A stretch of 64,000 bases of DNA. Origin: Bdellovibrionales bacterium (GTDB lineage: Bacteria > Bdellovibrionota > Bdellovibrionia > Bdellovibrionales > UBA1609). Positions 24,115 through 36,447 of this stretch are shown piece after piece; the first letter of the stretch is position 1; the number at the start of each line of letters is the position of its first letter. The notes below the pieces were generated by a model. It worked only from the letters and a program-made list of their open reading frames with translations, was not told the DNA's origin and did not search any database. Location: contig JAHBUX010000014.1 of assembly GCA_019637855.1 (NCBI GenBank), positions 1-64,000 of the forward strand, read 5' to 3'. The translations under genes were made by a program, and so were the position numbers.

Positions 24115-24304
24115 AGAGCTGGCCTACTTGCCTGTGGTTTTGTCCTCGATATATCGAGAGGGAAACTAGGCTGCCGGAGACAATATTGTCCGAGAGTTTC
24201 GGACGAAAAGGTGAAGGTCCTTACTAAGGCCCATAAAAAACTTTGGAATCGACGTCCGGTTGGCGGACATGCATCCGCCAACCACACAGTGGCCAGCCAG
24301 CTCT
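24115..24304 (+). repeat. 190-bp structured repeat, copy 1
   Basis: This element is repeated at 33348-33537 with three differences in 190 bp. The ends pair as AGAGCTGGC (24115-24123) with GCCAGCTCT (24296-24304). Next inward, CTGTG pairs with CACAG. Inner hairpins include the palindrome CTCGATATATCGAG, GTCCGA/TCGGAC, CCTT/AAGG, and a 10-bp stem GGTTGGCGGA/TCCGCCAACC with loop CATGCA. It fills the whole gap between the convergent plsC and methyltransferase genes, with 1 and 7 bp to spare. It is probably a structured RNA or a short mobile element. No coding frame in it is convincing. Confidence 0.85.
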
Positions 24305-32431: not shown

Positions 32432-32570
32432 ACCGATTTTCATGTGCACTTTGTCAGATTTACAAAAACTCTGCAGATGACCGGCGAGGACGAATGTGGA
32501 AACCTACGGGTCACGACGAAGTTTTGATCGATTTTGGAACTATTTTCCAAAGCCCCAGAAAGGTGCCGAA

Positions 32571-33341
32571 ATGCGAAACCTGGCGACGGCAATTGTCATT
32601 CAAGGTGTGGCTCTTCTGTTCCTTTGCGTGCCTGCGCACGCGCAGATGGATCTCAGTTTAACCGGTTTGTTTCGTCACTATCCTTTAAGTGGAATTGTGG
32701 AGGCCGATGCGGGCTATGGAATCCCCGTGTGGGGAACGCCGCGCACGCCCTTTTCTGGCTATCTGCGCCCGCGGCTGCTTGGTGGAACGGCGGCGATTTA
32801 CAACTCCGCCGATGCGGCCTTGGAGGTGTTTCCGATTGCGTTCTTCGGCGGTCGTGCGGGCGGGGAGATGATTCAAAACGACAGCGAGTACAGTGCTTAC
32901 GATTGCCAAGTGTATCGCTGTGTCGGTCGTTTTCATCGCACCTATGCGGAGGTGGAGCTGTCTTTGGGGGCCGGTCCGGTGTTTGCGCAAGCCCGCTGGC
33001 GCCGTGAGCGCTGGTCGCAACCCGATCCGTTAGCAGGCAGCTTTATCGATCCCACATCCGGGCTGGTAATGGCAGGTCGTGGAGATTGGCAAACAGTGAT
33101 TCATGGAGTGCTGGGGTATAAACTTAGCGAGCAGTGGACGGCGATGGCGATTCTTCGTTACGCCGAAAGCGGGGAGCCGCGCGAAGTGTCGCGTACTCCA
33201 GTGGCAATGTTGCGTTACACGGCGGGGCCGTTCAGCTTGGGCGTGGGAGCGGGTGTGTTTGAGTCGGCGCTGAAGAAACTGGATTTCACCACGCAGTCTT
33301 TTGTGCGCTGGGAGATCGAACCCAGTTTAGCCCTGCGTTAG
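32571..33341 (+). CDS. Outer-membrane protein, hypothetical
   Basis: A 256-residue protein. The ATG at 32571 follows AAAGGTG and gives a signal peptide ending AHAQ (about residue 24); a longer frame from 32496 lacks these. The mature protein is glycine- and aromatic-rich with repeated amphipathic strands, as in a small barrel, and has one likely disulfide (DCQVYRC). No family is recognised. It is preceded by the hairpin-rich region and followed at once by the second 190-bp repeat. Confidence 0.75.
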   Translation: MRNLATAIVIQGVALLFLCVPAHAQMDLSLTGLFRHYPLSGIVEADAGYGIPVWGTPRTPFSGYLRPRLLGGTAAIYNSADAALEVFPIAFFGGRAGGEMIQNDSEYSAYDCQVYRCVGRFHRTYAEVELSLGAGPVFAQARWRRERWSQPDPLAGSFIDPTSGLVMAGRGDWQTVIHGVLGYKLSEQWTAMAILRYAESGEPREVSRTPVAMLRYTAGPFSLGVGAGVFESALKKLDFTTQSFVRWEIEPSLALR

Positions 33342-33347
33342 CCTATC

Positions 33348-33537
33348 AGAGCTGGCTTACTTGCCTGTGGTTTTGTCCTCGATATATCGAGAGGGAAACT
33401 AGGCTGCCGGAGACAATATTGTCCGAGAGTTTCGGACGAAAAGGTGAAGGTCCTTACTAAGGCCCATAAAAAACTTTGGAATCGACGTCCGGTTGGCGGA
33501 CATGCATCCGCCAACCACACAGTGGTCAGCCAGATCT
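33348..33537 (+). repeat. 190-bp structured repeat, copy 2
   Basis: This has the same length and orientation as the copy at 24115-24304. The three differences all lie near the ends: C to T at 33357, C to T at 33526 and C to A at 33534. The last makes one mismatch in the terminal stem, while the first adds a T-A pair to it. The interior is identical. It fills the gap between convergent genes, starting 6 bp after one stop and ending 2 bp before the other. Confidence 0.85.
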
Positions 33538-33539
33538 AT

Positions 33540-34346
33540 CTATTTTAGGTGCTCTTCGGCGTTGTCGAGAAGCTTCACTTCCTTCTCGTTGAACGGGCTG
33601 GGGATTTTGCGTTGATGCACATATCCATCTAGGGCCATGCGGCAATAGCGAAACTGTGACGGTGGCGCGCCTTTTTTTACTTTTCCGGCCGAGGCCAGTT
33701 TGCGCTGGGCGGTGGTCAGCAGGCGCTGTTTCACCACTTGCAAGAGCCACTCGTTGGTTTTGGCTTGATCACCCATGGTCTTCGGTTCGATGGCGCCTTC
33801 CGCGGCGCTGCCGATAACGGCGGCATCTTTGGTCGCACCTTTCACCACATATCCGCCTTTGCCCTTGGTCAGTTCGATAGTCAGTGGCAGGTCGGTACTG
33901 CCAAATCCAAAAACGCCCTTTGAGCATTTGTCGGTCTCCGCTTTGTTGGCGTAGCATTCGGCTTTGAGGTTTTTGAAGGTCAAAACTGCGGGAGCTTTGC
34001 TGGCCGGCATGCGGCCCGCTTGAGCTTTGGCGGTGATTTGTTTTTCGGGCACAGCGTAGTTGTAGATGGCGAGTTTGCCTTTCTCATTGTCTTTCAAAAC
34101 AGAGAATTGCAGCTCGCCGCCTTTTTTCGGATGCACGATCACAAAGGCGTTGTAGCAAAAGTTCAAATCGTCTTTGGATTCTTCGGTGCCTAGAAAGGTA
34201 CCGAAGTCATCGTTAGCGCGCATGTCGCCGCTAAAGCATTCGCGCGCCAGCTTGATCTCCTGGCTTTTCAGTGGGCAGGTTTTCGGAACGCCTAGGGCGT
34301 GCACGGTCAAAGGCGAAAGCAGTAACCAAACTAAGCGGCGATGCAT
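33540..34346 (-). CDS. Secreted hypothetical protein
   Basis: A 268-residue protein with a signal peptide (MHRRLVWLLLSPLTVHA, about 17 residues). The mature part is basic and contains six Cys residues (TCPLK, ECFSG, FCYNA, ECYANKAETDKC, YCRMA), so periplasmic disulfides are likely. No family is recognised. It is convergent to the outer-membrane protein gene across the 190-bp repeat and divergent from trpS. Confidence 0.75.
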   Translation of the reverse strand: MHRRLVWLLLSPLTVHALGVPKTCPLKSQEIKLARECFSGDMRANDDFGTFLGTEESKDDLNFCYNAFVIVHPKKGGELQFSVLKDNEKGKLAIYNYAVPEKQITAKAQAGRMPASKAPAVLTFKNLKAECYANKAETDKCSKGVFGFGSTDLPLTIELTKGKGGYVVKGATKDAAVIGSAAEGAIEPKTMGDQAKTNEWLLQVVKQRLLTTAQRKLASAGKVKKGAPPSQFRYCRMALDGYVHQRKIPSPFNEKEVKLLDNAEEHLK

Positions 34347-36199: not shown

Positions 36200-36344
36200 C
36201 TCCGGTGTTAGTATCGGCGCGGTATTAGTGTCAGTGTCGGATCTATAGTTTTTGTTTTTAGATAGGTTGGCGGGGTGTTTTCTTTAGGCGCTGCTTTTCA
36301 AACTGGTGGGGTTTGTTTAGTCTTTTTGTGGGGTCGTGATTGTG

Positions 36345-36373
36345 TAGTGTTTAACCGCTTTGGTTAAACACTA
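36345..36373 (+). terminator. Terminator-like hairpin after the MOSC gene
   Basis: TAGTGTTTAACC (36345-36356) and GGTTAAACACTA (36362-36373) pair over 12 bp around GCTTT, followed by TGTTTGATTTTG. It lies 146 bp after the MOSC stop in a gap to the convergent lpdA gene. Confidence 0.55.
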
Positions 36374-36421
36374 TGTTTGATTTTGTGAGCGAAGCTCATT
36401 TCATCATTTTTGTTTTCGATC

Positions 36422-36447
36422 TTAGATCGGCCTTTCGGCCGATCTAA
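36422..36447 (-). terminator. Hairpin immediately after lpdA
   Basis: TTAGATCGGCC (36422-36432) pairs with GGCCGATCTAA (36437-36447). On the minus strand the loop is GAAA, a stable GNRA tetraloop. It abuts the lpdA stop codon, where a terminator or 3' stabiliser of the suc-lpd transcript is expected. There is no strong T-run. Confidence 0.55.

Follow-up and report, generated by a model that had tools for sequence, protein, structure and literature searches.

A family of probable 190-bp MITEs in a Bdellovibrionales genome, with a resident IS1-like insertion sequence as candidate helper

What is a 190-bp sequence that stands twice between convergent genes and in both places closes into the same nested set of stems? 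The window, which is the whole stretch of 64,000 nucleotides analyzed here, carries the two copies on the plus strand at 24115..24304 (copy 1) and 33348..33537 (copy 2). They are equal in length and 98% identical, as a sequence-only reading of this DNA had reported, with few differing positions and with unrelated flanks. That reading offered three explanations for the pair: a structured RNA, a small non-autonomous mobile element, or a bidirectional terminator. The analysis of the genome of origin (3.37 Mb in 26 contigs) favors the mobile element: the copies are best read as MITEs, a known kind of element to which they add a new sequence family, and a candidate helper resides elsewhere in their genome.

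The stems described earlier are indeed present. The 9-bp terminal stem AGAGCTGGC/GCCAGCTCT joins 24115-24123 to 24296-24304 and has one mismatch in copy 2; the nested CTGTG/CACAG stem lies at 24132-24136/24285-24289. Together these two are the halves of an imperfect terminal inverted repeat of about 27 bp. The perfect 10-bp hairpin GGTTGGCGGA-CATGCA-TCCGCCAACC occupies 24258..24283 of the plus strand, and eight of its pairs are invariant across the 13 copies of the family. Another inner hairpin, TGTCCGA-GAGTT-TCGGACG (24187..24205, plus strand), is kept in every subfamily, while the palindrome ACCAC-ACA-GTGGT within the right end is broken in copy 1 by one T-to-C change, as read from the sequences. 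The earlier impression that the interior is unchanged and the ends vary is correct for the two window copies only. Over 13 copies it is reversed: the variable parts are in the interior, at about columns 28-72 and 93-120, and most of both ends is near-constant together with the stem of the 10-bp hairpin. At columns 97-121, an alternative hairpin can be seen by eye whose register differs between subfamilies.

The whole-genome search with the 190-bp sequence, which the sequence-only reading had recommended, returned 13 full-length copies of 190-191 bp, and its worry that the two window copies might be the only ones can be put aside. The copies fall into four subfamilies with 90-99% identity within and 70-81% between them: subfamily 1, which includes both window copies (24115 and 33348) along with L003, L004 and L005; a second one of L006, L008 and L011; a pair, L007 and L009; and a group of L010, L012 and L013. 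Two short deletion forms, L014 of 53 bp and L015 of 62 bp, retain both ends. At a further locus (L034, around base 1501; G000:C24:60839-60856), a 24-bp palindrome, AGAGCTGGCTGACTAGCCAGCTCA, consists solely of two element termini and sits beside a stop codon; it may be a further, last remnant of the element. Outside its own genome the element had no match when the DNA of 58 relatives was searched; a covariance model run on 141 genomes of the order, its own included, gave matches in its own genome only; none was found in the phage and plasmid collections; and an exact two-block pattern had no match in genome and viral contigs. The window also contains a T/G-rich spacer of 248 bp with several hairpins, located between convergent genes at 36200-36447. 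It was considered as a relative of the repeat and ruled out, being single-copy and unrelated.

The exact borders of the element come from two copies, L007 and L008, which are flanked precisely at their ends by perfect 9-bp direct duplications (TACTTTATT and ATAGAGATT). Since these repeats adjoin AGAGYTGG and CCAGCTCT, the element is defined as 190 bp, and the duplications point to a transposase with a 9-bp stagger. As a control, 156 mismatched pairings of left and right flanks were compared, and the best of them agreed at 7 of 9 positions, none higher. Perfect duplications are found in 2 of the 13 copies; the remaining 11 have one to five matches out of nine, no better than the mismatched pairings. 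Five copies at 96-99% identity, presumably young, are among those without a target duplication. An exchange of flanks between copies was examined as the cause of the missing duplications and found no support, given that no left/right pairing rose above 7/9. IS1 is known to cause adjacent deletions, and one possibility, by analogy, is that the duplications were lost through deletions of this kind. The terminal repeat itself is similar to those of relatives, for example AAACTGGCCGACTTGCCTGT versus AGAGTTGGCCGACTTGCCTGT.

The right-end pattern of the element leads to a second family in the same genome, with the ends AGAACTGGC... and ...GACCAGTTCT. The longest copies of this insertion sequence are about 1,021 bp, and two of them have an open full-length frame for a 292-aa transposase. 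At the left, bp 1-27 of the element match bp 1-27 of the insertion sequence with 81-85% identity (E 0.002 to 4e-5 by copy), in copy 1 from the exact terminus over 24115..24141; at the right, about bp 167-190 match bp 998-1021 with 83-88% identity (E 0.002 to 1.5e-4 by copy), in copy 1 over 24281..24304, both on the plus strand. The two terminal matches are collinear, with order and orientation preserved, and the ACCAC-ACA-GTGGT palindrome is common to both right ends. Between the ends, the element and the insertion sequence do not match significantly, and the comparison of the 190-bp element with the transposase gave no supported similarity (best E 0.10). A decayed transposase in the interior, to which SRTI-like codons seen by eye had pointed, was discarded because tblastn scores were only at chance. 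The earlier observation that no transposase is nearby is right locally; the check for a helper gene that accompanied it yields a candidate, this 1,021-bp insertion sequence elsewhere in the genome.

The transposase has a zinc-ribbon-like N-terminal part and an HTH, and its conserved residues D122, D201 and E234 could be the catalytic triad. The NCBIfam model of the IS1 transposase (NF033558) is matched by 15 of 16 family members at E 1e-13, the best, to 2e-10. The protein of the own genome is related to the model at E 2e-10 but scores 40.8 bits against a curated cut-off of 100, and it is therefore named IS1-like, not IS1. A further likeness to IS1 lies in the target duplications, which are 8-10 bp where seen; the candidate helper differs in its single open frame of about 292 aa and in the pattern of its terminal repeat, (A)AACTG[GC]CC. 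The genome also has shorter forms of the insertion sequence, of 772 and 225 bp, that have lost internal parts. The 225-bp form (L052), which joins bp 1-47, 647-696 and 892-1021 of the insertion sequence, represents a second miniature element that is forming independently, so miniature forms do arise in this genome. A search for an autonomous element with the exact ends or the interior of the 190-bp element found none, and the true parent may thus have disappeared or be hidden in a gap of the assembly. Three contigs of G000 (C8, C10 and C18) have starts that lie inside the transposase gene, which indicates that further copies of the insertion sequence were collapsed in the assembly.

We hold it highly probable that the 190-bp element is a non-autonomous element with imperfect repeats of about 27 bp that uses an IS1-like transposase in trans and generates 9-bp duplications. 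It has the makings of a MITE in its 13 dispersed copies with constant ends, its terminal inverted repeats, its lack of coding capacity, and the presence of a transposase-bearing element with the same ends; of the three explanations offered at the outset, the small non-autonomous mobile element is the one that agrees with these copies, with the 9-bp duplications at the exact borders of two of them, and with the ends of the resident insertion sequence. Under the proposed mechanism, the element would be moved in trans by the IS1-like transposase, and each insertion would produce a 9-bp target duplication. Of what survives, the resident 1,021-bp insertion sequence would be the likeliest helper; otherwise it would be closely related to the true one, which has possibly been lost. 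We infer that the resident transposase is the mover, and that the palindromes of the interior are there for recognition of the DNA and not for an RNA.

The family resembles other bacterial MITEs, such as MITEAba12 and the QMITEs of Coxiella, in being short, non-coding, dispersed and intergenic, with terminal inverted repeats and a resident insertion sequence with matching ends. QMITE2 of Coxiella is reported mainly from 3' untranslated regions (PMC10969869). The 190-bp element differs from these in that it is a new sequence family found in one species only, its interior does not derive from the known resident insertion sequence, and few of its copies retain a target duplication. It is palindromic, intergenic and without coding capacity, as are REP, BIME and REPIN sequences; however, it is longer than those, it has perfect direct duplications in two copies, and its terminal repeats are those of an IS1-like insertion sequence. 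What had looked like a possible new RNA is thereby replaced by a more concrete account: a MITE family seen in one species and its candidate helper in the same genome.

Could the element still be a dispersed family of structured RNA genes under selection for its fold? The folding is stronger than that of shuffled sequences (z -4.26 on the plus strand), two stems (18-22/174-178 and 146-154/165-172) pair fully in 13 of 13 copies, and the invariant blocks are clustered, with a run of 17 that was reached in 3 of 5000 permutations and a window variance that was reached in none of 5000. The clustering beyond chance means that the interior is either constrained or recently shared; our guess is that binding of the transposase or of a host factor keeps it invariant. 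The fold, however, is about equally strong on the minus strand (z -3.58), the outer stems coincide with the terminal repeats, and the exact ends of two copies are flanked by target duplications. The compensatory changes that the sequence-only reading had asked to see are scarce: over 34 consensus pairs, in which 97% of the cells pair, a double change occurs in one, the covariation score is 0.090 versus 0.081 for shuffled alignments, and no measure is decisively above the controls, among which the shuffles reach one double-change pair too. With most stem pairs invariant, this is a test of low power, and it is mute on the two stems that never vary. Rfam, searched at gathering thresholds, has no match for the element. 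Taken together, the structured RNA is a very improbable identity for this family.

A different question is whether the mobile element has been domesticated to block transcription in both directions where genes converge. The copies are frequently placed between facing stop codons, the shorter forms likewise, and both strands have stable hairpins; to this extent the bidirectional terminator proposed earlier fits the position. It does not fit the main hairpin, as the 10-bp stem is without a following U-tract on either strand, and the sole terminator-like match is weak and at chance level (one site, with 0.6 expected by chance). Moreover, six copies (L007-L010, L012 and L013) are not between convergent genes, and same-genus relatives have the equivalent gene pairs without the element. 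We regard such a function as unlikely. The probabilities given here and below concern different questions, namely identity, function and placement, and need not sum to one.

The placement of the MITE is best illustrated by the two window copies and their flanking genes, which are simple longest-ORF calls. Upstream of copy 1, an acyltransferase gene (PF01553; 23337..24113, plus strand) ends 1 bp before the element and is intact compared with one same-genus homologue; the methyltransferase gene facing it (PF08241; 24312..25382, minus strand) has its stop codon 7 bp beyond. Copy 2 follows a gene without a Pfam match (32496..33341, plus strand), whose stop is 6 bp away and whose C-terminus is intact compared with three same-genus homologues, and it is faced by another gene without a Pfam match (33540..34346, minus strand) with a stop codon 2 bp beyond. 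In same-genus genomes, the homologues of both gene pairs are tail to tail, abutting or overlapping, with no element between them; in G003, the homologous junction reads TAA-AA-CTA. In this lineage, as seen in the window and at L128-L130, convergent genes frequently share exactly 4 bp or are no more than 8 bp apart.

Across the family, 8 of 13 copies, including both window copies, have a border within 8 bp (-2 to +7) of a facing stop codon. The control, taken from the window and three relatives, has 7.7% of noncoding positions equally close to such a stop; it omits coding positions, and the comparison with 8/13 is therefore approximate. Insertion inside a gene can mimic a one-sided stop, which makes the two-sided cases the stronger evidence: facing stops on both sides, at convergent pairs, are found in 4 of 13 copies (L001, L002, L005 and L006), and also for the 62-bp form and one intact insertion sequence. 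At several junctions, the stop is completed by the first bases of the element (T|AG, TA|A). The preference of the element for facing stops is established statistically, but it is not strict: L007-L009, L012 and L013 are exceptions. The tendency recurs in related insertion sequences of other Bdellovibrionota. By manual count, restricted to copies with well-defined ends, 14 of 18 have a border that lies -5 to +8 bp from a facing stop; a script tally with a wider limit gave 18 of 26, poorly defined ends included. Several of these sequences, notably in G051 and G058, have other termini, and their ends were not located. In L159, as read from the sequence, the facing stops TAG-C-TTA lie inside the duplication ATAGCTTACA, and by this arrangement each gene retains its own stop; L174, a site that also appears as L062 and L103, resembles it.

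Two explanations of this placement deserve consideration. An insertion does the least harm when it falls between convergent genes, and the pattern may come from survival only: insertion would be random, and in a dense genome almost any other site would be harmful. We give this about an even chance. Most noncoding sequence in the control is indeed upstream of some gene (2675 divergent and 2559 tandem versus 137 convergent positions). Yet convergent spacers make up 2.6% of the noncoding positions in the relatives' loci, and convergent genes in this lineage mostly overlap or lie a few bp apart; they offer almost no neutral target, and many insertions are there nonetheless. Alternatively, the IS1-like family and its MITEs would target facing stops, and their termini, by adding A, AA or AG to a preceding T or TA, would rebuild a stop for each gene and make insertion nearly cost-free even in overlapping genes, an idea that we advance tentatively as the less probable one. 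No description of facing-stop placement was found in the literature searched. The wider pattern in Bdellovibrionota, with insertion sequences at the facing stops of convergent genes, could reveal a way for mobile DNA to spread with low harm in very compact genomes.

Two of the copies that are not between convergent genes, L009 and L013, lie directly behind T-tracts in their left flanks, 62-69 bp past a stop codon. In L009, the T-tract comes after a GC hairpin (ATCCCCGC..GCGGGGAT-TG-TTTTTT), and the arrangement resembles an intrinsic terminator.
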